A stretch of DNA of 64,000 nt from Cytophagaceae bacterium (GTDB lineage: Bacteria > Bacteroidota > Bacteroidia > Cytophagales > JAIYAX01). A program made the translations under genes and the position numbers. The number at the start of each line of letters is the position of its first letter. The stretch's first letter is position 1. Under the pieces are notes generated by a model that worked only from the letters and a program-made list of their open reading frames with translations, did not search any database and was not told where the DNA came from. The DNA is taken from NCBI GenBank assembly GCA_027488815.1, contig JAIYAX010000019.1, forward strand, positions 1 to 64,000. The letters run 5' to 3'. Below are positions 277 through 52,633 of this stretch, one piece after another.

Positions 277-284
277 TATATTTG
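277..284 (+). promoter_or_regulatory. Candidate Bacteroidota -7 box directly before the start codon
   Basis: TATATTTG matches the Bacteroidota -7 consensus TAnnTTTG and ends six bases before the ATG at 291. If transcription starts the usual few bases downstream, the mRNA would be leaderless or nearly so. No clear -33 TTTG is seen at 19-bp spacing, so this rests on the -7 match and position alone. Confidence 0.35.
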
Positions 285-290
285 AACAAC

Positions 291-1145
291 ATGAAAGCAA
301 TCGCTACACTTCTCGTATTGTTTTTAGCTGCTTCTTCTAAAGCCCAATACCAATCCATCTTTGGACAGAACTCTACGGAATGGAGTGAGCTTAATACAAA
401 TTTAGGCTGGTCTTTTTCCGAGCATTTTACTGTATCAGGGGACACTATGGTAAATGGGTTGCCATACAAGACGGCATCGTTAATGAATTTCATTGCGTTA
501 CCATTACTTTTAAGAGAAGACACAACTACCGGAAAAGTATGGAGTCTTAGTATATCTTCAAACTTTACTCAGGAGTATCTAATTGCAGATTTTTCTTTAT
601 CACTTGGAGATGCTTTTTTGGTGTACAGACCTTACTATTTACCGTCCATTGAAACAGCCATTGTTGATTCGGTATACATTATATCAGGCAAAAAACATAT
701 CCGCTTCAATTACTTTAATCCTAATAGTAATTTTCCTTTCAAGCTGATGTTTATAGAGGGTGTCGGGCCGAATTTCGGTTTCTGGTATCAACCTCAAACA
801 TTTAATTTGTTTCCGATCCTCCTTTGTAAATCAAAAGATAATGTACAGGAATATGCCAATACCGTTTTAAATGGCAGCTGTACTGTAGTGGGTCTGGAAA
901 GTAATCAGGTTCAGGAAAGTATCAGACTAATACGGCAGGATGATGGATATCTGGTTCAATTTAAGCCCGGCTTAGAACCTTTTGAAATCAATTTAATGGA
1001 TATGCAAGGAAGGCTTTTAAAGGCTGATTTCGTTCCAGTTGACAAAGGAGAGACCTATATCAACCTATCCGGCTGGTCAGAAGGCATGTATTACGTGTCA
1101 ATCCATTCCAATACGGTGCATTATTCAACCAAAGTAATAAAGTAA
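291..1145 (+). CDS. Secreted protein with T9SS-type C-terminal sorting domain, function unknown
   Basis: A 284-residue protein from the ATG at 291; an in-frame TTG at 282 lies inside the putative -7 box, so the ATG is preferred. Residues 1-19 form a signal peptide (MKAIATLLVLFLAASSKAQ) with an Ala-Gln cleavage site typical of Bacteroidota. The middle, about 20-200, has no domain I recognise and is rich in aromatic residues. The last 75 or so residues resemble a T9SS type A sorting domain, with beta-strand segments such as INLMDMQGRLLKA and GMYYVSIHSN and a basic end (STKVIK). It is probably exported to the periplasm, carried across the outer membrane by T9SS and then clipped. The 3' end sits eight bases before repeat copy 1, whose inverted repeats may end its transcript. 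Confidence 0.7.
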   Translation: MKAIATLLVLFLAASSKAQYQSIFGQNSTEWSELNTNLGWSFSEHFTVSGDTMVNGLPYKTASLMNFIALPLLLREDTTTGKVWSLSISSNFTQEYLIADFSLSLGDAFLVYRPYYLPSIETAIVDSVYIISGKKHIRFNYFNPNSNFPFKLMFIEGVGPNFGFWYQPQTFNLFPILLCKSKDNVQEYANTVLNGSCTVVGLESNQVQESIRLIRQDDGYLVQFKPGLEPFEINLMDMQGRLLKADFVPVDKGETYINLSGWSEGMYYVSIHSNTVHYSTKVIK

Positions 1146-40024: not shown

Positions 40025-40074
40025 CAAAGGGTACAGATGTGGAATAATGGTGGAAAAAGCCCGGGAGTGGTTTG

Positions 40075-40082
40075 TATCTTTG
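40075..40082 (+). promoter_or_regulatory. Candidate -7 box of mutS
   Basis: TATCTTTG ends five bases before the mutS ATG at 40088. A start of transcription at or next to the ATG is expected. Confidence 0.4.
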
Positions 40083-40087
40083 TTTTT

Positions 40088-42712
40088 ATGGCCAGTGTAG
40101 AAACCCCTTTGATGAAGCAATACTCCGCCATTAAGGCTAAGTATCCAGGAGCCCTGTTGCTTTTTAGGGTTGGTGACTTTTATGAAACATTTGGGGAAGA
40201 TGCGGTAAAGACCAGTCGCATACTGGATATCACACTGACCAAGCGCTCCAACGGATCGGCCTCCGAAGTGGAATTAGCCGGGTTCCCATATCATGCTCTG
40301 GATAACTATTTGCCGAAATTGGTAAGGGCTGGGCAAAGAGTGGCGATCTGTGACCAGTTAGAAGACCCCAAAATGGTCAAAGGAATCGTCAAGAGAGGGG
40401 TGACAGAATTGGTGACACCGGGTGTCAATTTGCACGATCACATCCTGGATGTTCGCAAAAACAACTACCTCTGCGCTGTACTTTTTCAGGAAAAAAAGGC
40501 AGGAATAGCTTTTCTGGATCTTTCGACCGGAGAGTATTCAGCTGCCGAAGGGGATCTGGCATTATTGGAAAAACTGGTAAATAGTTTCAGTCCTGCCGAA
40601 GTTCTTTTTCACAAAAAACAAAGAAAGGAGTTGCAGGAACAAGTTCCTGAGATCAGCAGCACCTACGGGTTGGATGATTGGGTATTTCAGTATGAATATG
40701 CCTATGAGCAATTAATCAGGCAATTTAAAACACAAAATCTCAAGGGTTTTGGGCTGGAGGATATGCCCTTGGCCATAACTGCCGCCGGAGCGATTTTGCA
40801 TTACCTCAAGGAAACTGAGCATAACGATCTGGCTCATATTTCCGGGCTTAGCAGAATTGAACAAGATCAATATGTCTGGCTGGATCGGTTCACCATTCGA
40901 AACCTTGAATTGCTGCAAGCCCAACATGAAGGTGGGGTTCCGTTGCTGCAAATTCTGGATCATTCAGCTACTCCCATGGGCTCCAGGCTATTGCGCAGAT
41001 GGATTGCTTTACCGCTCAAGGAGTTGGACCGTATCAAACAAAGGCTTGAGGTATTGACCCATTTAAAAGAGTCTAAAAACTTGAAGGAGAGCCTTGTAGC
41101 AGAGCTCAAACCCATTGGTGACCTGGAAAGATTAATCTCCAAAGTGGCGGTGAGGAGGATCAATCCCAGAGAAATGCAACAACTTCGTCGGGCATTGGGG
41201 CATCTGGTACCCATCACCCGATTTCTTATCGACAGTGGTAATGATCGGCTGTCAAGCCTGGCCGGAAGAATCAACTTATGTGATGAGCTCTATCAGAAAA
41301 TATACCGGACATTAAAAGCTGAACCACCTGCTCTGCTTTCTCAGGGTGGACTTATCGCTGATGGTGTTGATCCTGAGCTGGATGAATTGCGGGGCATTGC
41401 CTATGCCGGAAAAGACTACCTGATCAAACTCCAGCAGCAAGAGATCGGCAGAACAGGTATCAGCTCCTTAAAAATAGCATACAACAAAGTGTTCGGTTAT
41501 TATCTGGAGGTTACCCATGTCCATCGTGATAAAGTGCCTGCGGACTGGATAAGAAAGCAAACACTAGTCAATGCAGAACGGTACATTACCCCTGAGCTGA
41601 AGACGTATGAGGAGAAAATCCTGAATGCCGAAGATCGGATTTTACAGATCGAGTTGAGAATCTTTCAGGAACTGATGGCTGAAGCGGCTGAGTATGTCCT
41701 GCCTATTCAGGAAAACGCAAGGGTAATCGCTCAACTGGATGTGCTTCAAAGCCTGGCGACGGTGGCCGAAAAACTTCAATATTGCAAGCCTGAAGTTGAT
41801 GAAAGTCTGGTTTTGGATATTCGCAGAGGACGTCATCCGGTGATTGAATGTCAATTGCCCCCCGGAGAAAGCTACATACCCAATGATTTGTACCTCGACC
41901 AAGAAGATCAGCAGATTATGGTGATTACCGGCCCAAACATGGCCGGGAAATCAGCCCTTCTCCGTCAAGTAGCCCTGATCAGTTTGATGGCACAGATGGG
42001 TTCATATGTCCCTGCCGATTATGCCAGAATAGGGATCATAGATAAAATCTTCACCCGGGTAGGCGCCTCTGATAATTTGTCAAAAGGGGAGTCAACATTC
42101 ATGGTGGAAATGACCGAAACGGCCAGCATTCTGAACAATATGAGTGACCGAAGTCTCATTCTGATGGATGAAATAGGCCGTGGAACCAGTACTTATGATG
42201 GCATTTCGATCGCCTGGGCTATTGTCGAGTATCTGCATAACCACCCCAGGTATAAACCCAAAACCCTCTTTGCCACCCATTACCATGAGTTAAATGAGCT
42301 TGCCAAGGACCTACAGGCAGTGAAAAACTTCAATGTAGCCGTAAAAGAGGTTGGTGATAAAGTGATCTTCTTAAGAACGCTCAAGGCCGGAGGCTCAGAG
42401 CATAGTTTTGGTATACACGTAGCTCAAATGGCAGGGATGCCTAATGCAGTGGTGCTAAGAGCTGCTGAAATCATGCATCAGCTCGAAAAGGACCCGGCTC
42501 GTAAACAAAACAAGGCAAGGATCAAGGAAATAAACCGTGCAGAAGTGCAACTGCATCTTTTTGATCCGGTTAATCCCCATTTTAACAGGGCGATGAAGCT
42601 TCTGGATGAAACAGATATCAATACGTTAAGCCCTGTTGAAGCGCTACTCAAGCTCAATGAGCTTAAAAAACTAGCAGAAATTGCCCGTTCATCAGAAAAT
42701 TTAGTGAGCTAG
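40088..42712 (+). CDS. mutS: DNA mismatch repair protein MutS
   Basis: An 874-residue mismatch-recognition ATPase. The mismatch-wedging FxE motif is in GDFYETFGEDA near the N-terminus. The ATPase domain has Walker A TGPNMAGKSALLRQVALI, Walker B 'SLILMDEIGRGTSTYDG' and the 'TLFATHYHEL' switch. The ATG at 40088 gives the normal start (MASVETPLMKQYSAIK); the upstream part of the frame overlaps the promoter. It pairs with MutL (not in the window). Confidence 0.97.
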   Translation: MASVETPLMKQYSAIKAKYPGALLLFRVGDFYETFGEDAVKTSRILDITLTKRSNGSASEVELAGFPYHALDNYLPKLVRAGQRVAICDQLEDPKMVKGIVKRGVTELVTPGVNLHDHILDVRKNNYLCAVLFQEKKAGIAFLDLSTGEYSAAEGDLALLEKLVNSFSPAEVLFHKKQRKELQEQVPEISSTYGLDDWVFQYEYAYEQLIRQFKTQNLKGFGLEDMPLAITAAGAILHYLKETEHNDLAHISGLSRIEQDQYVWLDRFTIRNLELLQAQHEGGVPLLQILDHSATPMGSRLLRRWIALPLKELDRIKQRLEVLTHLKESKNLKESLVAELKPIGDLERLISKVAVRRINPREMQQLRRALGHLVPITRFLIDSGNDRLSSLAGRINLCDELYQKIYRTLKAEPPALLSQGGLIADGVDPELDELRGIAYAGKDYLIKLQQQEIGRTGISSLKIAYNKVFGYYLEVTHVHRDKVPADWIRKQTLVNAERYITPELKTYEEKILNAEDRILQIELRIFQELMAEAAEYVLPIQENARVIAQLDVLQSLATVAEKLQYCKPEVDESLVLDIRRGRHPVIECQLPPGESYIPNDLYLDQEDQQIMVITGPNMAGKSALLRQVALISLMAQMGSYVPADYARIGIIDKIFTRVGASDNLSKGESTFMVEMTETASILNNMSDRSLILMDEIGRGTSTYDGISIAWAIVEYLHNHPRYKPKTLFATHYHELNELAKDLQAVKNFNVAVKEVGDKVIFLRTLKAGGSEHSFGIHVAQMAGMPNAVVLRAAEIMHQLEKDPARKQNKARIKEINRAEVQLHLFDPVNPHFNRAMKLLDETDINTLSPVEALLKLNELKKLAEIARSSENLVS

Positions 42713-42924: not shown

Positions 42925-42964
42925 AAGTGCCCTTCTCTTGGAAAAGAAAGGGCACTTATTTTTT
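42925..42964 (+). terminator. Intrinsic terminator
   Basis: AAGTGCCC at 42925-42932 pairs with GGGCACTT at 42950-42957, extended by a partial CTT/AAG stem, and a T-run follows. It ends the transcript coming from mutS or from the candidate small RNA. Confidence 0.8.
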
Positions 42965-44384
42965 AGTGCCCATACCCCGCTAAAGCCTTCCACTGCTTGC
43001 TCCAGGCATTTTGGGAACTAAGTCTGATCAATTGAACCCCTGAACCATTCAATAAGTGAGAGATGTCCCAAATCTGAAGCTCTTTTCCTTTTGAAAGCAA
43101 TTCTTTGGCAAGCATTCGTTGCCCATTCATGCTAAAAACCTCTAACTGGAGGTATTCATCTCCATCGGATTTAAAAGTTATCAGAGTTCGACCATGAACA
43201 GAACTCAAATAGCAATAGGGTTCATCTTGCCCTACTGATGGAGTGAACAAAGTACCATTGCTCATTTTTATGAAAAGAGGAATATCTGCACTAAACGAAA
43301 AGTTCTGGCTGCTTTCTGTGTACTTCAGAAGCACTAAATAGGGTTTTTCCCGTTGGTCAGTAATCAAGGTATTCCAATTCAACTGAGCATTAAATCCTTG
43401 TGAGTCAGGAATAACCGCCTGGGTTACGGCTGGATTATTGAGCATGAAATCGGCCTGAAACCGAAGACTCTTTTGAGTGAGGTCTGGATCTAGCAAACTG
43501 ACATTCAATTGAAAAAACTGGCCTGCAACTGCCGGATGTTCATACAAGAACAATGGAGGAGGTTGAAAATTATTTTGTACTATCTGAGGTGACTGGTTGA
43601 AGCCGGGCACATTCATTACCGCAATTAACACGTCCCTTCCGACCAGTCCTATCATTTGTCCTGCCCTCCATTCCTCAACATTAACCCTCCAAACATATTG
43701 TCCTATTACCACCGGCTTCCAAAGAAAAATACCAAGCTGCTGGTCAAACAAATAACTCGAAGCCCCTATGTTCCATGGGAAACTTGAAATGATTGGGTCT
43801 GAAGGACCATTGCCCACTGGTAAAGCCGGTCGATATACCAAAGAGTCACCATCTGGGTCAACTGCATCCAATGCGATGGAATACCACTGTTGGCTTAAGG
43901 CCGCAGGCTCTGGTATTCGCCTGATCCGGGGGCTGCTGTTGGGCATGCCTTGAACAAAAGGAGTGAACTCCGTCATTAATCCCAATTGCTGGGATGAGGA
44001 ATTGCTCATATTGAGGATGCTAAATGTGCGGCAACATTGAGCAATCCAACAGGTATACTTTAGTGAGCTATCCGGAAAAACGATACTACCACCATAGTAC
44101 AAGTCAAGAAGCTGATTATTGTTAAGGGATTGTGCACTATCCACTTGAAGCAAAACAGAAAAAACTGCCAGACCCGAGGATGAGGGTGGCTCTACCCACA
44201 TGGTAAAGTTCGGCGGAGTTGCAATTACACCCGTATACCTAAGAAAGCGCAGGTTTGCCCTGAACGTATTTCCTGAAACATGATGAATCCTGATCTCACC
44301 TCCAACACCATGATTACCGAGGCTGTCCAAAGACCAAAAAAGGCAGCAACCTATACAAAAGAGATATAGACTTGCCTTTTTCAT
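42963..44384 (-). CDS. Secreted GGEI-type repeat-family protein, paralog A of four
   Basis: A 473-residue exported protein, the most diverged of four tandem paralogs. After a signal peptide (to about residue 23) comes the family start HGVGGEIRIHHVSG. Shared landmarks follow: an adjacent cysteine pair (CWIAQCCRTFSILN), 'NSSPRIRRIPEP', the DPDGDSLVYRP segment and VEEWRAGQMIG. This order matches the large Bacteroidota 'GGEL...YRDC / DPDGDSL' surface proteins. The C-terminal 75 residues look like a T9SS sorting domain (LEVFSMNGQRMLAKELL) but with an unusual end (YGH). It starts nine bases after gene B and likely shares its transcript. Confidence 0.7.
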   Translation of the reverse strand: MKKASLYLFCIGCCLFWSLDSLGNHGVGGEIRIHHVSGNTFRANLRFLRYTGVIATPPNFTMWVEPPSSSGLAVFSVLLQVDSAQSLNNNQLLDLYYGGSIVFPDSSLKYTCWIAQCCRTFSILNMSNSSSQQLGLMTEFTPFVQGMPNSSPRIRRIPEPAALSQQWYSIALDAVDPDGDSLVYRPALPVGNGPSDPIISSFPWNIGASSYLFDQQLGIFLWKPVVIGQYVWRVNVEEWRAGQMIGLVGRDVLIAVMNVPGFNQSPQIVQNNFQPPPLFLYEHPAVAGQFFQLNVSLLDPDLTQKSLRFQADFMLNNPAVTQAVIPDSQGFNAQLNWNTLITDQREKPYLVLLKYTESSQNFSFSADIPLFIKMSNGTLFTPSVGQDEPYCYLSSVHGRTLITFKSDGDEYLQLEVFSMNGQRMLAKELLSKGKELQIWDISHLLNGSGVQLIRLSSQNAWSKQWKALAGYGH

Positions 44385-44392
44385 GCTGCTAG

Positions 44393-44506
44393 CTCAAGGT
44401 TTAATCAACTTCAGAGTCTTCTGCCAGCCTTTTCCATCTACTGCTTTGAGGATGATCAATCCTTGATGAGCTGTGAGCTTATCACTGATAAACTGATGCT
44501 GACCCT
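44393..44506. repeat. Near-identical 3' block shared by paralogs B and C (copy in B)
   Basis: 114 bases covering the last codons and stop of paralog B match 46211-46324 of paralog C with seven substitutions, far closer than the rest of the two genes. It encodes the T9SS tail. Gene conversion between the two is the likely cause. Confidence 0.75.
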
Positions 44507-45824
44507 TGGTCATAGTGCCTTCTGCAAACTTGGCAAGCTTCCTTCCTTGCACATCATACGCCATGATGTTGATGTCTTTGGCAGATGGCAATCGGAGTGA
44601 CATTTGGAGTAAGCCTGCTTCATTTAAATAGGCATCAAAGGCAATGTCGTCAACTTGACTCTGCTCCAAGCCAGCTACGATTGATGATACCTGGAGCATA
44701 ACTGGTATATCTCTGCTAAAGGTGTAAAGAGGTGTCACCTCACGGTATTTAATATGCATTTGGTGGGGGACAGGGCTGATCATCGACAAGGAAGGAGTCC
44801 AATTGATAACAGCGCTGATGCCAGTTGATGTCGTGGTCGTGCTGGCAACTGCTGCGGATGGGCCTTGAAATACTGGACCGGTAAATAAAAATGATTTCGT
44901 GGTAGGATCAGGATCCGTGATATCGAGGTTTAATGTAAAAGGTGAACCGGCTTGAATTTGAATAGAAGGAAGTGTAAAGCCAGTCAGAGGATTTCCATTC
45001 AATAATATGGTCGGAGGATTTGTGTTAACTGAATTATTAATAACACTTATCTGAATATCTCTCATAACTGATCCAATTTTAGTTCCATTACGCCATTCAT
45101 CCACAGCATAAGTAAGTTGATGTGAGCCTAAGGTATTAGGCAACCAAAAAAAGGTACCAGTCTGTGCATCAAAACTATAAGGAGTGTTGTTAACTTGATA
45201 AATTGGGATAAAGGTTGGGATATTAATTAGATAACCATACATGTACCCCATAGTTTGAGAAACTTCCAATCTAAAGGTCAGAGAATCGCCATCAGGATCG
45301 AAAGCAAATGGGCCATGAATATAAGGTTGATTAACTGGAGCAAATGGTTCAGGAGGTAGTAAAAAGCGAGGACTTGAATTTGAACTCCCTACAGCTGAAG
45401 GTGAAAACTCTGTAGTTACAGCAAAATGGTGCGCACTGCTTCCGATCCCACCCAGATTTAGAATATTTAAGTTTCGGCAACAAGTTGATGTAATTATTCT
45501 ATACCGTTCATTCAAAAAAGGGAAAGTAATTAAAGAACTGTAATAATACTCCTCAGCATAATTTGGACTAATTACTTTACTACTATCCAAAGACAAAATA
45601 CTGTGAAAGTAGAAATTTGAAGAACTTGCGATGCTTCGAGTAATCACATCAAAAGTGCTTGGAGCTATGGCACCTGATGAAAATCGCCAAAATCTTACAT
45701 TCAATTTATATTGTGAGCCGCTTACATGTGTTACAAAAATTTCCCCGCCCATTGAATGGGTTGCAAAGCTATCCTCTATTCCAAAAAGGTAGCAAAAAGA
45801 TAGCAAAAAGATCAGCTTTTTCAT
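44394..45824 (-). CDS. Secreted GGEI-type repeat-family protein, paralog B of four
   Basis: A 476-residue exported protein with signal peptide (about 1-21) and start THSMGGEIFVTHVSGSQYKL. Landmarks: TSTCCRNLNILNLGG, 'NSSPRFLLPPEP', 'DPDGDSLTFRLE', VDEWRNGTKIG and 'TFSRDIPVMLQ', then a T9SS-type tail ending WQKTLKLIKP. The tail and the cysteine pair suggest a folded, surface-exposed protein. The gene is a mosaic: its 3' end matches paralog C and a 176-base block matches paralog D. The 387 bases upstream share short stretches with the region upstream of D. Confidence 0.72.
   Translation of the reverse strand: MKKLIFLLSFCYLFGIEDSFATHSMGGEIFVTHVSGSQYKLNVRFWRFSSGAIAPSTFDVITRSIASSSNFYFHSILSLDSSKVISPNYAEEYYYSSLITFPFLNERYRIITSTCCRNLNILNLGGIGSSAHHFAVTTEFSPSAVGSSNSSPRFLLPPEPFAPVNQPYIHGPFAFDPDGDSLTFRLEVSQTMGYMYGYLINIPTFIPIYQVNNTPYSFDAQTGTFFWLPNTLGSHQLTYAVDEWRNGTKIGSVMRDIQISVINNSVNTNPPTILLNGNPLTGFTLPSIQIQAGSPFTLNLDITDPDPTTKSFLFTGPVFQGPSAAVASTTTTSTGISAVINWTPSLSMISPVPHQMHIKYREVTPLYTFSRDIPVMLQVSSIVAGLEQSQVDDIAFDAYLNEAGLLQMSLRLPSAKDINIMAYDVQGRKLAKFAEGTMTKGQHQFISDKLTAHQGLIILKAVDGKGWQKTLKLIKP
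44614..44789. repeat. Near-identical block shared by paralogs B and D (copy in B)
   Basis: 176 bases match 47949-48124 with 12 substitutions and no indels (about 93%). The equivalent part of paralog C is much less similar, although C matches B closely at the 3' end. Confidence 0.75.
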
Positions 45825-46211
45825 ATTGTTCGAAGTTTAGACCCTACAAATTAATCTTTTTTATTTTAGAATGCAAGTATTTTTAAAGCTTTAGCCTATA
45901 CCTTTTCATTTTTCATCAAAATAGAGGAAATGAAGGCCATTATCCATTAACATTATTCACAATTTCTTAACATATGCCTGAGCACCACTCAATTATAAAT
46001 TCATGGGATAAAGAGATGGGCTCTACTCATCCGTAATCAGACAAATTGATAATCGACAATAGTAAAAATGGATAGAGACTTAGCTAAACAGTGTCTCCTA
46101 TCATAAAACTCTTTCACATTAACAGGAAACTGACAAGCAGTAAATCAAAAGCCTAATGTTACTAACTATTGCCCTTAGTGAGCTAAAACTTATGGCAGAC
46201 GCTTTACTAAC
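45825..46211. other. 387-bp intergenic region upstream of paralog B
   Basis: AT-rich and without a gene. Around 45906-45985 it resembles the region upstream of paralog D (49220-49300): both contain a 'CATCAAAATAG' stretch, then 'AATGAAGG' and an 'ATTCA...ATTTCTT' segment. It therefore looks like a duplicated promoter region with the gene. I see no exact TAnnTTTG box or terminator. Confidence 0.5.
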
Positions 46212-46324
46212 TCAAGGTTTAATCAACTTCAGGGTCTTCTGCCAGCCTTTTCCATCTTCTGCTCTAAGGATAATCAATCCTTGATGAGCTGCGAGCTTAT
46301 CACTGATAAATTGATGCTGACCTT
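46211..46324. repeat. Near-identical 3' block shared by paralogs B and C (copy in C)
   Basis: Partner of 44393-44506; the identity begins just before the stop codon and includes the final 37 or so codons. Confidence 0.75.
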
Positions 46325-47657
46325 CGGCATACTGGCCTTCCATTAACACCCCTAAGTTTCTACCTTGAACATCAAAAGCAACTACCCTCATTTCTGCCTT
46401 TTCGTCGAGGTTCAAAGTCAAATTAAGTCGTCCATCTTCGTTCAGAAAGGCCACAAGATTGTTCTCCTTTTCCCGATTATTTCCTAACCCTGCAACTGCT
46501 GGCAGTACTGTCACCATGACCGGAATATCCCGGCTGAAGGTATATAAAGGTGTGGTTTCCAGATACCGGATATGCAGCATATGAGGTGTGCTGCTTACCA
46601 TACTAGTGCCGGGTGTCCAATTAATAGATGCTGAAATGCCGTTAGAAGTATTTGTGGTTGTGACCATAGCCGGGTTACTCCCTTGAAATATTGGGCCTGT
46701 AAACCTGAAAGATTTAGTCGATGGGTCTGGATCGTTTATGGCGATAGTCAAATTAAATACAGAACCTGCATAAGCATTCAACTGCGGTAGGGCTATACCG
46801 GTGAGTTGATTTCCTCCAAGAAATATGGAAGGTGGGGTAGGATTGAAGGAACTACCTAATACATTGATCCTAAAATCTCTAGTGACTGAGCCAATCTTTT
46901 GACCGTTTCTCCATTCATCAACTTTGTAGAGGTGTTGGAAACCTCCAGTTGAAGTGGTGAGCCAGTTAGTGGTACCAGTCATCGTATCGAAGCTAAAAAT
47001 TGAGTTCGCAATGGGTAATGCACTTAAGGACCAAAATGGGGATGCATTGATTAGATTTACTGGTACATATCCATTTCCGTTAGTTTGAGGTGTGTCCAGT
47101 CTAAATGTCAATGAGTCTCCTTCAAGATCATAAGCAAAAGGGCCATGAACATAAGGCTGATTTGCCAAAACAATTGGTTCGGGTGGTAGATAAAACCTTG
47201 GACTTGAGTTAGGAACACCTGAAATAGATGGAGTGAACTCTGTGGAAAATGCTAATAGATTATTTGCACTTGAAGGACCAAATAGATTTATAATAAGAGG
47301 ACTTCTACAACAAAAAAACGTAGATATCTCATATCGATCAGTAATATTAGGGAACGTAAATAAAGCACTATAATAATGCTCTTCTGCATAATTAGGACTA
47401 ATTACAGAAAAACTATCTTTAGTCAAGACTATGTTGGGAGCAAAAAAATTACTGCTCAAACTTCTAACATGTACCTGAAAAGCATGAGGAGCAGGAAGCC
47501 CTATGATAAATCTCCAGTAATTAATTTGCAGTTTATACTGTGACCCGGAGACATGTGTTACAATCAGTTCACCACCCATCGTTTGCGACTGTATAGCTTT
47601 TGCATCAGTTAATCCCATCAATAAAAGGAAAAACAGTATTACAGAAATTTTTCTCAT
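46212..47657 (-). CDS. Secreted GGEI-type repeat-family protein, paralog C of four
   Basis: A 481-residue exported protein with a signal peptide (about 1-21) and start TMGGELIVTHVSGSQYKLQI. It has the same landmarks as its neighbours: FFCCRSPLIINLFG, 'NSSPRFYLPPEP', 'DLEGDSLTFRLD' (the usual Pro-Asp changed to Leu-Glu), VDEWRNGQKIG and 'TFSRDIPVMVT', then a T9SS tail ending WQKTLKLIKP. Role unknown; adhesion or surface decoration is a guess based on the wider family. It lies 71 bases after paralog D. Confidence 0.72.
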   Translation of the reverse strand: MRKISVILFFLLLMGLTDAKAIQSQTMGGELIVTHVSGSQYKLQINYWRFIIGLPAPHAFQVHVRSLSSNFFAPNIVLTKDSFSVISPNYAEEHYYSALFTFPNITDRYEISTFFCCRSPLIINLFGPSSANNLLAFSTEFTPSISGVPNSSPRFYLPPEPIVLANQPYVHGPFAYDLEGDSLTFRLDTPQTNGNGYVPVNLINASPFWSLSALPIANSIFSFDTMTGTTNWLTTSTGGFQHLYKVDEWRNGQKIGSVTRDFRINVLGSSFNPTPPSIFLGGNQLTGIALPQLNAYAGSVFNLTIAINDPDPSTKSFRFTGPIFQGSNPAMVTTTNTSNGISASINWTPGTSMVSSTPHMLHIRYLETTPLYTFSRDIPVMVTVLPAVAGLGNNREKENNLVAFLNEDGRLNLTLNLDEKAEMRVVAFDVQGRNLGVLMEGQYAEGQHQFISDKLAAHQGLIILRAEDGKGWQKTLKLIKP

Positions 47658-47728
47658 TGTTAAGAACTATTTTTATCTCAAACTAACTAACCAATGGATT
47701 GTTAGGAAAAAGTATTTAAGAAGAACAA

Positions 47729-49150
47729 TTACCTACCTATGAGCTTTATGGTCTTCTGCCAACCTTGATGATCTTGTGCCCTGAGTATCATCATGCCTTG
47801 ATAACCTGTAAGCTGATGATGAACAGATTGGTGTTGACCCGATTCAAAACGGCCTTCTACGAGTACACCCAGGCTCCTGCCCTGTACATCATAGGCGTAA
47901 ATGCTCAAATCAGATGCTTCCAATAGGGTAAAATTCACTTGCACATGTCCTGCTTCATTTAAAAAGGCATCAAAGGCAATGTCGTCAACTTCACTCTGCT
48001 CCAAGCCTGCAACAATTGATGATACCTGAAGCATAACCGGGATATCCCTGCTAAAGGTGTAAAGAGGTGTCACCTCATGGTATTTAATATGCATTTGGTA
48101 TGGGACAGGGCTGATCATCGACAAAGGGGGTGTCCAGTTGATGACAGCGCTGATGCCTGTTGAGGTTGTGGTCGTATTGGCGAGGGCTGAGGATGCACCC
48201 TGAAACATAGGTCCGGTAAACAGCAATGACTTAGTTGTAGGGTCCGGATCGGTGATGTCGAGGTTTAACGTAAAAGGTGAACCTGCTTGGATCTGGAAAG
48301 TGGGCGTTGTAAATCCTGAAAAACCACTTCCGTTAAGTACAATTGAAGGAGGAGTGGTGTTAATCGAATTATTAACTACACTAATCTGAACATCACGACT
48401 GACTGATCCTATTTTGATACCATTCCTCCACTCATCAACCACATACGTTAGCTCAAATGCTCCTAACATATTTGGTAGCCAACTAAATGTACCAGTCGTT
48501 TGGTCATAACTATAGGATGAGTTACTTACCTGATATAAATATGTAAAGGGTTGTATGTTTGATAAGTTGCCATTAAGGAGGGTTTTTGTCGTATCTAATC
48601 TAAAGCTAAGCGAATCTCCATCAGGGTCAAATGCAAAAGGCCCGTGTATGTAGGGTTGATTCAATAAAGCAAAGGGCTCTGGAGGCAATAAAAACCTCGG
48701 ACTTGAATTTAATGAACCTCCTACTGTTGGTTTGAATTCTGTGTAAACTGCAAACATAAGAGAGGCGCTTGAAGCCCCACCTAAGTTTAAAATGTTTGCG
48801 TTTCTACAGCAGACAAATGTTTTGATTAGATAAAGATCACTTAAACTGATAAAAGAAAATGTTCCGCTATAAAAATATTCCTCTGCATAATTTGGGCTTA
48901 TGACTTTAGAGCTATCCAGGTATACATTGATGTTGCTTTCCGGAATGCTGGATGTTAGACTCTTAATTGAAATTGGAAAAACTGTAGGAGCAGGTATCCC
49001 TGCTATAAATCTCCAAAATCTAAAGTGAACCCTGTACTGTGATCCACTAATCTGATTTAGATAAATCTCTCCACCCATGGAATGAGAGGCAAAGGTCTCC
49101 TGAATTCCCAATAAGCAGCAAAGCGAAAGTAGCATGATCAGCTTTTTCAT
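47729..49150 (-). CDS. Secreted GGEI-type repeat-family protein, paralog D of four
   Basis: A 473-residue exported protein, first in the array in the direction of transcription. Signal peptide to about residue 21, then SHSMGGEIYLNQISGSQYRV; landmarks KTFVCCRNANILNLGG, 'NSSPRFLLPPEP', DPDGDSLSFRLD, VDEWRNGIKIG and TFSRDIPVMLQ. The tail ends WQKTIKLIGR rather than the KLIKP of B and C. It shares a 176-base block with B. It diverges from the thiamin unit with 307 bases between. Confidence 0.72.
   Translation of the reverse strand: MKKLIMLLSLCCLLGIQETFASHSMGGEIYLNQISGSQYRVHFRFWRFIAGIPAPTVFPISIKSLTSSIPESNINVYLDSSKVISPNYAEEYFYSGTFSFISLSDLYLIKTFVCCRNANILNLGGASSASLMFAVYTEFKPTVGGSLNSSPRFLLPPEPFALLNQPYIHGPFAFDPDGDSLSFRLDTTKTLLNGNLSNIQPFTYLYQVSNSSYSYDQTTGTFSWLPNMLGAFELTYVVDEWRNGIKIGSVSRDVQISVVNNSINTTPPSIVLNGSGFSGFTTPTFQIQAGSPFTLNLDITDPDPTTKSLLFTGPMFQGASSALANTTTTSTGISAVINWTPPLSMISPVPYQMHIKYHEVTPLYTFSRDIPVMLQVSSIVAGLEQSEVDDIAFDAFLNEAGHVQVNFTLLEASDLSIYAYDVQGRSLGVLVEGRFESGQHQSVHHQLTGYQGMMILRAQDHQGWQKTIKLIGR
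47949..48124. repeat. Near-identical block shared by paralogs B and D (copy in D)
   Basis: Partner of 44614-44789. Confidence 0.75.
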
Positions 49151-49278
49151 ATCGTACGAGGTTTAGATGTGGAAAACTAATCCTTTTGACGATAAAAAGC
49201 AAGCACTTAATTAAGTCTATGTCATGGATTCTTCATTTTCATCAAAATAGGTGCAATGAAGGGCATTTTGTTTATGCA

Positions 49279-49308
49279 TTGTTCATCATTTCTTTACCTC
49301 TATCTTTG
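49279..49308 (+). promoter_or_regulatory. Promoter of the thiamin unit
   Basis: TTG at 49279-49281, 19 bases, then TATCTTTG at 49301-49308, a good Bacteroidota promoter whose transcript would start just at or inside the first bases of the TPP riboswitch. The rest of 49151-49278 shows the duplicated upstream region of paralog D and nothing else. Confidence 0.6.
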
Positions 49309-49396
49309 CATCGGGGTGCCCTGAATCAAAATCGTATCAGGGCTGAGATCATACCCATAGCACCTGATCAGGGTAATGCCTGCGAAGGGAACCGAT
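49309..49396 (+). promoter_or_regulatory. TPP riboswitch (THI element)
   Basis: The conserved THI-box parts appear in order: a 5' stem strand with CGGGGTGCC, the GGGCTGAGA core at 49340-49348, ACCC, the CACCTGATC strand, GGTAATGCC and the closing GCGAAGGGA. TPP binding to such elements lowers expression. The 60 bases after it hold a perfect hairpin (CCGGAG-TC-CTCCGG, 49424-49437) but no T-run, so control of translation is more likely than termination. It governs the receptor and probably the two genes after it. Confidence 0.93.
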
Positions 49397-49457
49397 CTTC
49401 GAACGATAGCGAGGCGTTCTGCCCCGGAGTCCTCCGGTACTTAATCATGCAAATTGT

Positions 49458-51698
49458 ATGTATTTGATTCGCTTCAGCTTTTGGAGTTTGTTCTTTTTTA
49501 TCTCCATTCCCCTATCCGCCCAACCCTTAAAAAACATCAGAATTCTTGATCGATCCACTTTGCTGCCGCTTCCGGGTGTGGTGGTTTTTGATGGTCAAAA
49601 ATCAACCCTCAGCAACCAGGCCGGTTGGGTTGAATTAGCTACTTCGTCTGCGGAGCTTTCTTTCAGCCTGACAGGCTACAAGAGCCTACGGATCCCGTTC
49701 ACAAGCCTTAAGGATACCCTTTCTTTGGAACCTATGGATTATCTTCAGGAAGTTGTCGTGGTAGGTCTGAGAGGTGGAGGCTACATGAGTACCAGTCAAA
49801 AAACCCTCAGTAAAACTGAAATTGAGGATCAATATTACGGTCAGGACGTAACTGAGCTGTTGCAGAACACTCCGGGTGTCTATTCAAATTTCCAATCCGG
49901 TGTGCCTTTTACCAATTACTCAGAGATCAGGCTGCGAGGCATGGACCAAAGCCGCATCAACATCACTTTAGATGGTGTGCCTTTAAATGATGCTCTTGAC
50001 CAGGGGGTGTTCTTTTCCAATTTTACTGATTTTGGCAACAGCATTGAAAGCATCCAGGTTCAGCGGGGAGTAGGCACATCCAGCACCGGAACAGCTTCTT
50101 ATGCCGGCAGCATCAATTTTGAGTCCATCAGCCTGAGAGATACTGCTGCTTCTGCCTCCATTCAAAGTGGGGCTGGTTCATTTCAAACTCGTCGATTTTC
50201 AGCTGAAGCTTCCACAGGCTTAAAGGCAAATGGCTTAAGTGCTTATGTACGTTACAGTGAGCTTGCCACAGATGGATACAGATATCACAGCGGCACGAGG
50301 GCCACATCTTTTTTTGGCTCAGCCGGTTACTATGGCAAAAAGGACCTTTTAAAAGTGGTAGCCTTTTCCGGTCGCACAAAAAATCAGCTAGCTTATCTGC
50401 CTGAACCCATCAGCCTCATCAATGCAGATCGCAAGGTTAATAGCCTAAGCAGAAACATGACGGATGATTTTGGGCAGTCCTTGTTCAGCCTCCAGTACCA
50501 TCGCTTTTTGGGCAGAGCGCACACCCTGGCTGCAACCCTCTTTCATGGCTGGGCTGGCGGAGATTTTGAAGTAAGCGACGATCTTAACTTTAGTTTACAA
50601 AACAACCACTCCGGCGTGTTAATGAACTATCATTTTCAGCCGGTCAGTGTATTTACATTGGATGCAGGTGTGCAGGCACAGCAGTTCAAAAGAGAAAACT
50701 ATGCCTTCTTAAGCCCCTTGAATACCCAGAGACTCTACACCAACTTTGGTTTAAAACAGGAGCTATCTGCCTTTTTAAAAATGGGATACCGGTTGGGAAA
50801 GCTGACTGCATTTGCTGATCTGCAAGTCCGAAATGTGGCATTTGATTATACCGCCGATGCTCAGTACCAATTGGAAGTCCCTGCAATTCAATGGCAATTC
50901 ATCAACCCTAAAGCTGGCCTGAGCTATGAGTTGAACCCCAAAAGCCAGATTTGGATAAGTCTGGGCCGATCCGGAAGAGAACCCACCCGAAGGGATTTGC
51001 TGGTAGGACTGGATGACATAACTCCGGCTAATGCTGACACTGCCGCTAACTTCAAATCGATCAAGGCAGAGCAGGTAACCGATTTGGAATTGGGCTATCG
51101 CTTTCAAGGGCCTAAGCTTAGCCTTGACTTCAATGTTTATCGAATGGAGTTCAGGAATGAAATCGCACCGACAGGCGAATTCACAAGTTGGGGTGAACTA
51201 CTCAGAAAAAATCTTCCAGAAAGCCGCAGAGAAGGGATTGAACTAGGTCTTGTCTGGAAGCCACTTAAATGGTTCAAGTTAAGCCATACCTCTGCCCTGA
51301 CCCGTGCCCGAATAAAAGTGTATGAAAACAGCAGTCAGGACCTTGTGTTTTCAAACGTTCAGCCATTGTTAAGCCCTCAGGTGATCCTGCAGGAACAAGT
51401 TGAACTGGACTATCCTGGAAGAGGCCAACTAATCCTCACGACCAGATACGTGAGCAGATCTTACTTAAGCAATGAAAATGTTGATGGGTTCTACCTTCCC
51501 TCCTACTTGGTGATGAATGCCATGGCTCGTCTGAATTTGTATAAAAACCATAAAATCAGCTTTATGGTGAACAACCTGTTAAACGCCCGGTATTTTACTT
51601 CCGGAACAGTGAATGGTATTTTTAGCCCTGAGGCTGAAGCAGCCTATTTCGTGGCAGCACCCCGCAACTATATGATCACCCTTCACCTCTCTTTCTGA
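49458..51698 (+). CDS. TonB-dependent receptor, thiamin-regulated (probable thiamin or precursor uptake)
   Basis: A 746-residue outer-membrane receptor. A signal peptide (about 1-21, ending SAQ) is followed by a carboxypeptidase-like domain (about 25-90), a plug domain ('VTELLQNTPGVYSNFQSG', 'IRLRGMDQSRINITLDGVP') and a 22-strand barrel ending in Phe. Because it lies directly under a TPP riboswitch it probably imports thiamin, a thiamin phosphate or a pyrimidine precursor using TonB energy. No inner-membrane permease gene follows in this unit. The next gene starts one base inside its stop codon. Confidence 0.92.
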   Translation: MYLIRFSFWSLFFFISIPLSAQPLKNIRILDRSTLLPLPGVVVFDGQKSTLSNQAGWVELATSSAELSFSLTGYKSLRIPFTSLKDTLSLEPMDYLQEVVVVGLRGGGYMSTSQKTLSKTEIEDQYYGQDVTELLQNTPGVYSNFQSGVPFTNYSEIRLRGMDQSRINITLDGVPLNDALDQGVFFSNFTDFGNSIESIQVQRGVGTSSTGTASYAGSINFESISLRDTAASASIQSGAGSFQTRRFSAEASTGLKANGLSAYVRYSELATDGYRYHSGTRATSFFGSAGYYGKKDLLKVVAFSGRTKNQLAYLPEPISLINADRKVNSLSRNMTDDFGQSLFSLQYHRFLGRAHTLAATLFHGWAGGDFEVSDDLNFSLQNNHSGVLMNYHFQPVSVFTLDAGVQAQQFKRENYAFLSPLNTQRLYTNFGLKQELSAFLKMGYRLGKLTAFADLQVRNVAFDYTADAQYQLEVPAIQWQFINPKAGLSYELNPKSQIWISLGRSGREPTRRDLLVGLDDITPANADTAANFKSIKAEQVTDLELGYRFQGPKLSLDFNVYRMEFRNEIAPTGEFTSWGELLRKNLPESRREGIELGLVWKPLKWFKLSHTSALTRARIKVYENSSQDLVFSNVQPLLSPQVILQEQVELDYPGRGQLILTTRYVSRSYLSNENVDGFYLPSYLVMNAMARLNLYKNHKISFMVNNLLNARYFTSGTVNGIFSPEAEAAYFVAAPRNYMITLHLSF

Positions 51699-52633
51699 TG
51701 AGATCAGTTACAGTTGCTCTTGACTGGGCACCCAATACCAATCATGCCGGAATTTTGGTGGCTTTGGCCAACAATTGGTATTCCGAAGCAGGTCTCGATG
51801 TCAAGCTCATCTCTACTGAAGCAGATGAATATGCGGTTTATCCCATCCAAAAGCTGGTAGAAGGCTTGGTTGATGTGGCAATGGCTCCTTCAGAACATGT
51901 TATCTACTACCATCATGAGGGTAAAATTCTAGAACCAATAGCCATTGCAAGTGTCTTTCAGGAAGATAGTTCGCTGATGTTGATACGGAACTCAACGCCA
52001 CAAGGACCTGCCGGTCTGGACCATAAAATCTACCTGGGCTACCAAACTCGATTTGAGGAAGATGTGATTCAGCACATGGTCCGGTTTGCTGGGGGCAAAG
52101 GAATGGTGCATTTATCTCACCCGCCAAAACTATCCCTTTGGGATTCATTTATTCATGGGGAAGGTGACGCTTGTTGGGTGTTCAAAGGCTGGGAATATGC
52201 TCAGGCTGTCCAAGTGGGAATGGAAGTAAAACCCTACCGGCTTGCTGATTATGGAGTGCCATATGGTTACTCTCCCGTTTTGATTGCAAACAGGTCTGCT
52301 TTGGATAAAGACCCCATGCCCTACAAATCATTTATCAAAGTCACGCAAAGAGGTTATCAATTTGTAGTGGAACATCCTTTGGAAAGTGCTCTTCTCATGA
52401 AAAAAGTCTGGGAACATAAGAACACTGCAGACCCCGCATTTACACTATTTAGCCTGATGCACATAAACGATTCATTTCTTACTCCATCGGGAAACTGGGG
52501 CTACATGAGCCAAGATCGTTGGCATTCCTGGTCAGACTGGCTGTCCAAAAAGCAATTAATTGTAGATGCTAATGGAACCGCCGTTCCTCCCGAACGGGTT
52601 CAGGCAAGTGCCTTTTTTCAAAACCTGATTTGA
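51698..52633 (+). CDS. THI5/NMT1-like (ThiY-type) protein without signal peptide
   Basis: A 311-residue type II periplasmic-binding-protein fold. It starts at the first strand (VTVALDWAPNTNHAGILVA) with no export signal or lipobox, and the ATG is fixed by overlap with the receptor stop. Relatives are ThiY, which binds formylaminopyrimidine for an ABC importer, and fungal Thi5, a cytoplasmic enzyme that makes the HMP-P pyrimidine from PLP and its own histidine. In APSEHVIYYHHEG a His lies where Thi5 has its donor His66, but the PLP-binding Lys four residues earlier and the CCCFC iron motif are not seen. So a cytoplasmic pyrimidine-binding or altered enzyme role is likelier than either textbook function. 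Confidence 0.8.
   Translation: MRSVTVALDWAPNTNHAGILVALANNWYSEAGLDVKLISTEADEYAVYPIQKLVEGLVDVAMAPSEHVIYYHHEGKILEPIAIASVFQEDSSLMLIRNSTPQGPAGLDHKIYLGYQTRFEEDVIQHMVRFAGGKGMVHLSHPPKLSLWDSFIHGEGDACWVFKGWEYAQAVQVGMEVKPYRLADYGVPYGYSPVLIANRSALDKDPMPYKSFIKVTQRGYQFVVEHPLESALLMKKVWEHKNTADPAFTLFSLMHINDSFLTPSGNWGYMSQDRWHSWSDWLSKKQLIVDANGTAVPPERVQASAFFQNLI

Follow-up and report, generated by a model that had tools for sequence, protein, structure and literature searches.

Mosaic identity in a tandem array of predicted secreted-protein genes of a Cytophagaceae bacterium and its probable origin in gene conversion between neighbours

Gene conversion between paralogs of exported and surface proteins is already well known, and the array described here reveals no new mechanism. 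The surface proteins of P. gingivalis are described as undergoing domain rearrangement and allelic exchange, with gene conversion named (PMC5266723). Gene conversion among the M. tuberculosis PE/PPE/ESX paralogs is reported as over 300 events on a phylogeny of 151 genomes (PMC13061034), and 26 genes with long-lasting, recurrent concerted evolution are reported among prokaryotic paralogs (PMC6053082). The present locus would resemble the first system in that Bacteroidota surface proteins with sorting tails have parts reshuffled by recombination, although that study covers 21 strains and long adhesin modules, and ours one genome, short tracts and unrelated proteins. It would share with the PE/PPE/ESX family the short conversion tracts between exported-protein paralogs of a single genome, but those events are placed on a phylogeny and the two old tracts here are read from one genome. 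The homogenization of same-genome paralogs is likewise common to this locus and to the concerted evolution reported in the third study, which is long-lasting and recurrent there, whereas here two patches were homogenized and the rest is saturated. One literature search in which gene conversion was combined with type IX secretion and C-terminal domain yielded only the P. gingivalis paper (PMC5266723).

The locus lies in a window of 64,000 nucleotides, meaning the whole stretch of DNA analyzed, from a draft assembly of 30 contigs (genome size 3.4 Mb). The array comprises four minus-strand genes arranged head to tail, which according to the open-reading-frame list are transcribed in the order D, C, B, A:

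47729-49150, minus strand: paralog D, 473 aa, the first gene in the direction of transcription (from the open-reading-frame list, with a full-length match in its own genome)
46212-47657, minus strand: paralog C, 481 aa, protein identity of 51% to D and 56% to B
44394-45824, minus strand: paralog B, 476 aa, the mosaic gene, protein identity of 67% to D and 56% to C
42963-44384, minus strand: paralog A, 473 aa, distant, with 28-30% protein identity to each of B, C and D

The four reading frames are intact, and the products (473-481 residues each) are predicted to be secreted. Gene coordinates place 71 bases between D and C, 387 between C and B, and 9 between B and A, gap sizes that make two transcription units, D-C and B-A, likely. 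Paralog A exhibits no window of high identity to B, C or D and no sign of having taken part in exchanges. A gene labeled mutS-like from its translation (40037-42712, plus strand) is convergent with the array and adjoins it. MutS restricts the recombination of diverged sequences in general; the juxtaposition is curious and probably due to chance.

The array proteins matched no Pfam or PHROGs family at E <= 0.1 and no PDB sequence. When the last 98 residues were searched alone, TIGR04183 (T9SS type A sorting domain) was the sole or best family for all four paralogs, with scores of 14.1-20.1 bits that fall under the curated cut-off of 23, so the tails do not qualify as sorting domains by that measure; in the whole-protein search the family appeared in A only (16.5 bits). 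The genome does encode the secretion system and other cargo, with a SprA match at 2611 bits and 103 TIGR04183 matches, of which the 100 above the cut-off represent a rich set of predicted secreted cargo. Elsewhere in the window, a 287-residue protein (282-1145, plus strand) carries a TIGR04183 tail above the cut-off, at 29.3 bits. An AlphaFold model built from the four-row alignment with B as its first row (mean pLDDT 64.0, pTM 0.47) displays an N-terminal helix followed by successive beta domains similar to generic Ig-like folds. Among the Foldseek matches listed, most were antibody, Ig-like cell-adhesion and cadherin chains, and since their TM-scores on the query did not exceed 0.22, only the presence of Ig-like beta domains was taken from the structure. 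The array proteins are predicted to combine a signal peptide, Ig-like beta domains and a weak match to a type IX secretion sorting tail; they would be secreted surface proteins, perhaps adhesive ones.

Searching the genome itself with D recovered the array genes as the only full-length matches. Seven further rows at E <= 0.01 were each confined to a portion of the query, and four of these lay within open frames of 620-1604 residues. Beyond this genome, 7 of 291 genomes in the order matched D at E <= 1e-25 (up to five candidates scored per genome); one was its own, and the other six aligned only with query residues 2-360, within open frames of 882-1753 residues. A phylum-level search with a four-gene profile at E <= 1e-40 (up to four candidates per genome) returned its own genome and no other among 395. 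The genus and family searches, in each of which the set consisted of this genome only, returned no relative, and neither did a contig scan with B. A plasmid search gave one weak match in Hymenobacter (26.9% identity over 61%), and a pattern search found three viral contigs. Among the genomes sampled (291 in the order, 395 in the phylum), no full-length relative of the array proteins was therefore detected.

B, C and D are old paralogs whose silent sites approach saturation along most of the alignment: in columns 0-1020, pS reaches 0.73 for B-D, 0.66 for B-C and 0.76 for C-D. Outside the tracts described below, codons encoding the same amino acid are identical in most segments at a frequency near that predicted by codon usage (0.32-0.43). 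Silent-site divergence drops in two tracts only, whose edges are approximate:

44614-44840, minus strand: B copy of the B-D exchange tract, at alignment columns about 1020-1249
47949-48175, minus strand: D copy of the B-D exchange tract, on the same basis
44389-44509, minus strand: B copy of the B-C tail tract, covering the last ~116 coding bases and about 5 past the stop codon
46207-46327, minus strand: C copy of the B-C tail tract, on the same basis

Within the internal tract, B and D differ at 21 of 227 bases. The initial annotation had reported 12 differences between them over a 176-base block, and the comparison of B 44614-44789 with D 47949-48124 returned exactly that number in 176; the clear divergence of C that it described for the same columns is likewise borne out by 82 (B-C) and 79 (C-D) differences. 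The B-D pS is 0.31 in the tract vs 0.59-0.83 elsewhere in the pair. Among codons encoding the same amino acid in B and D, 51/66 are identical in the tract and 105/241 in the rest (Fisher p 7e-7, an optimistic value since segment edges were picked from the same data), whereas this identity is not raised for C-D in the block (17/41 vs 80/193 in the rest). Site patterns in the block columns favor B=D over B=C by 86:5, and the longest surviving run of identity now extends up to 30 bases.

The second tract, at the 3′ ends of B and C, exhibits 92% identity over 121 bases and stops about 5 bases beyond the stop codon. The near identity of the last 114 bases that had been noted for this pair stands, although its count of seven differences does not: we count nine when starting from the stop codon and eight when starting from 44393. 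Without gaps, the same 114 bases differ at 41 positions in B-D and 40 in C-D. The B-C pS falls to 0.21 in the tail vs 0.56-0.91 elsewhere in the pair, and 28/32 same-amino-acid codons are identical, compared with 94/222 in the rest of B-C (Fisher p 9e-7, optimistic for the reason given above). In the tail columns, the B=D and B=C patterns occur in the ratio 3:36, and the longest surviving identity run is now up to 24 bases.

The mosaic in B is confirmed. Its tracts of raised identity are bounded by more diverged sequence, the rise extends to silent sites, and the nearest neighbor of B conflicts between them. A uniform profile, which the initial annotation had set against its own reading, was not what the analysis gave; divergence is sharply uneven along the alignment, silent sites included. 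The GENECONV-type recombination test proposed there strongly supported both tracts, with permutation counts of 0-8/5000. Over the columns where B, C and D differ, which served for both permutation procedures, the observed score was reached at all sites in 0/5000 permutations for B-D and 0/5000 for B-C, and at third codon positions in 0/5000 and 8/5000, respectively; max-chi2 gave 0/5000 for each pair at all sites, and 29/5000 (B-D) and 2/5000 (B-C) at third positions. When sequences were simulated under a single tree with local rates, the tracts were reached in 0/2000 cases for B-D and 0/2000 for B-C at all sites, and in 0/2000 and 1/2000 at third positions. Separate rather than proportional branch lengths per segment yielded likelihood ratios of 148.8 at all sites and 56.9 at third positions (6 df), with p-values that are again optimistic for fixed segments. 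This three-sequence branch-length test and the simulations were used because the four-taxon AU test, applied to eight segments including the whole gene with A as the distant outgroup, left the alternatives mostly unrejected and, for columns 0-1020, leaned toward B+C (p-AU 0.926, as opposed to 0.114 for B+D and 0.058 for C+D), A being too distant for the test to decide in most cases.

A further candidate tract between C and D (columns 403-449) was reached at all sites in 39/5000 permutations and 9/2000 simulations and is not claimed; it weakens when third positions alone are used, the best stretch then (columns 395-461) being reached in 392/5000 permutations and 110/2000 simulations. Directed base-specific mutagenesis was set aside, as the tracts contain differences of mixed types. 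The crude measure applied to the N-terminal part gave no support for positive selection, pN being lower than pS for all three pairs over columns 0-1020.

The initial annotation had also proposed that exchange spares the N-terminal regions. This holds for the most part, as those regions are mostly diverse (pS 0.66-0.76), but a weak hint of older exchange between B and C appears in columns 90-600. In these columns 50/93 same-amino-acid codons are identical in B and C vs 36.6 expected (p 0.003, uncorrected), and third-position patterns number 46 for BC, 29 for BD and 28 for CD (p 0.05). The signal hints at what may be an older, decayed exchange, which we do not claim, and the history of B would thus not be simply that of a D copy with two patches. 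In columns 900-1020, B and D are nearly the same in protein (pN 0.07) despite saturation of their silent sites (pS 0.68), and exchange is therefore not the source of all their likeness.

The upstream regions of B and D carry further traces of their common history:

45825-45989, minus strand: upstream (5′) flank of B, homologous to that of D
49151-49314, minus strand: 5′ flank of D, with likeness to the B flank

The two flanks share 103 identical bases among 164 aligned, whereas shuffling the D flank 60 times never gave more than 77. C starts 71 bases past the D stop, and upstream of it no flank of the B/D type was found, the repeat search having paired the B and D flanks only. Because they share this diverged flank, B and D are most simply viewed as the products of an old duplication in which the upstream region was retained, with patching at a later time; the two tracts are younger overlays. 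Block exchange, offered initially as the cause of the B-D likeness, would account for the tract, but part of the likeness is inherited, as seen in columns 900-1020 and in the homologous 5′ flanks. The likeness of the flanks ends about at the start of the TPP riboswitch of a divergent gene, beside which D keeps its place. That riboswitch (RF00059, 60.8 bits; 49302-49407, plus strand) precedes a gene labeled TonB-receptor-like from a reading of its translation (49458-51698), whose promoter region falls inside the stretch homologous to the B 5′ flank. The next gene (51698-52633) resembles THI5/NMT1-type binding proteins, and the three elements together probably serve thiamine uptake.

Homologous recombination, that is, gene conversion, within the array is in our judgment the probable and best explanation of the mosaic; given the weak signal between B and C in columns 90-600, we put it no more firmly. 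One duplication that included the upstream region would have given rise to B and D. Homologous recombination, acting much later where patches of identity survived, would have copied short stretches between neighbors, homogenizing about 230 bases between B and D and about 120 bases at the 3′ ends of B and C. We infer RecA-type gene conversion inside the array as the process, and sufficient remaining identity as the reason why exchange took place in the tail and the inner domain; surviving identity runs would have let recombination of this type pair the neighbors and copy about 120-230 bases each time, and no dedicated diversity-making device would be required. The silent divergence of 0.2-0.3 in the tracts, with substitutions of mixed types, fits old exchanges. 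The recombination originally suggested is supported by the uneven silent-site profile, but its description as repeated extends to at least two tracts, others being only hinted at. The searches above returned no second strain or close relative, and exchange is thus read from the sequence of one genome.

The C-like tail of B could instead reflect a fusion, resulting either from an unequal crossover or from the duplication of a D-C unit and a later deletion between the D-like and C-like ends, in which case only the B-D block would be due to conversion. The 5′ flank and signal peptide of B do resemble those of D, and its very end resembles that of C; unequal crossing-over, if repeated, would be expected to build the tandem order D-C-B-A. 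Yet DNA carried along from downstream of C could reach further than the roughly 5 bases past the stop at which the likeness to C ends, an objection short of proof since the junction itself or later change may have removed that DNA, and the silent sites in columns 90-600 do not follow D; we regard the fusion as unlikely. Exchange between strains, whereby natural transformation or transfer brought in related array DNA that recombined into B, C or D, would suit tracts that are 91-93% identical rather than fully so, as the donor may have been a diverged allele, and allelic exchange of surface genes is reported in the P. gingivalis study (PMC5266723). An outside donor would, however, have to match D still in the internal tract and C in the tail, and the same numbers follow from an internal exchange with later silent change; we regard this source as very unlikely.

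Two explanations would dispense with exchange altogether. Selection might have conserved some portions of the proteins as the others diverged, and columns 900-1020, protein-alike in B and D over saturated silent sites, are what it predicts; in the tracts, however, the silent sites are alike too, while those of the other pairs in the same columns are not, and the silent-site and same-amino-acid codon tests rule out protein-level selection as the cause of the tracts, leaving this account a negligible probability. Misjoined reads from neighboring copies are conceivable where paralogs stand in tandem and the assembly is a 30-contig draft, but a misjoin would give exact identity, and 21/227 and 9/114 bases differ, scattered along the tracts, in genes with intact frames; we give such an artefact next to no credence.

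With gene conversion within the array as the preferred reading, it is conceivable, though we think it quite improbable, that the array acts as a slow generator of diversity for surface proteins. Recombination would then keep the secretion tail and the inner Ig-like domain alike as handles, while the outer N-terminal domains would diverge and be swapped onto the common ends. More generally, the array would represent a clear, statistically strong case of patchy gene conversion among predicted secreted proteins, and it indicates that whole-gene trees of such arrays mislead.
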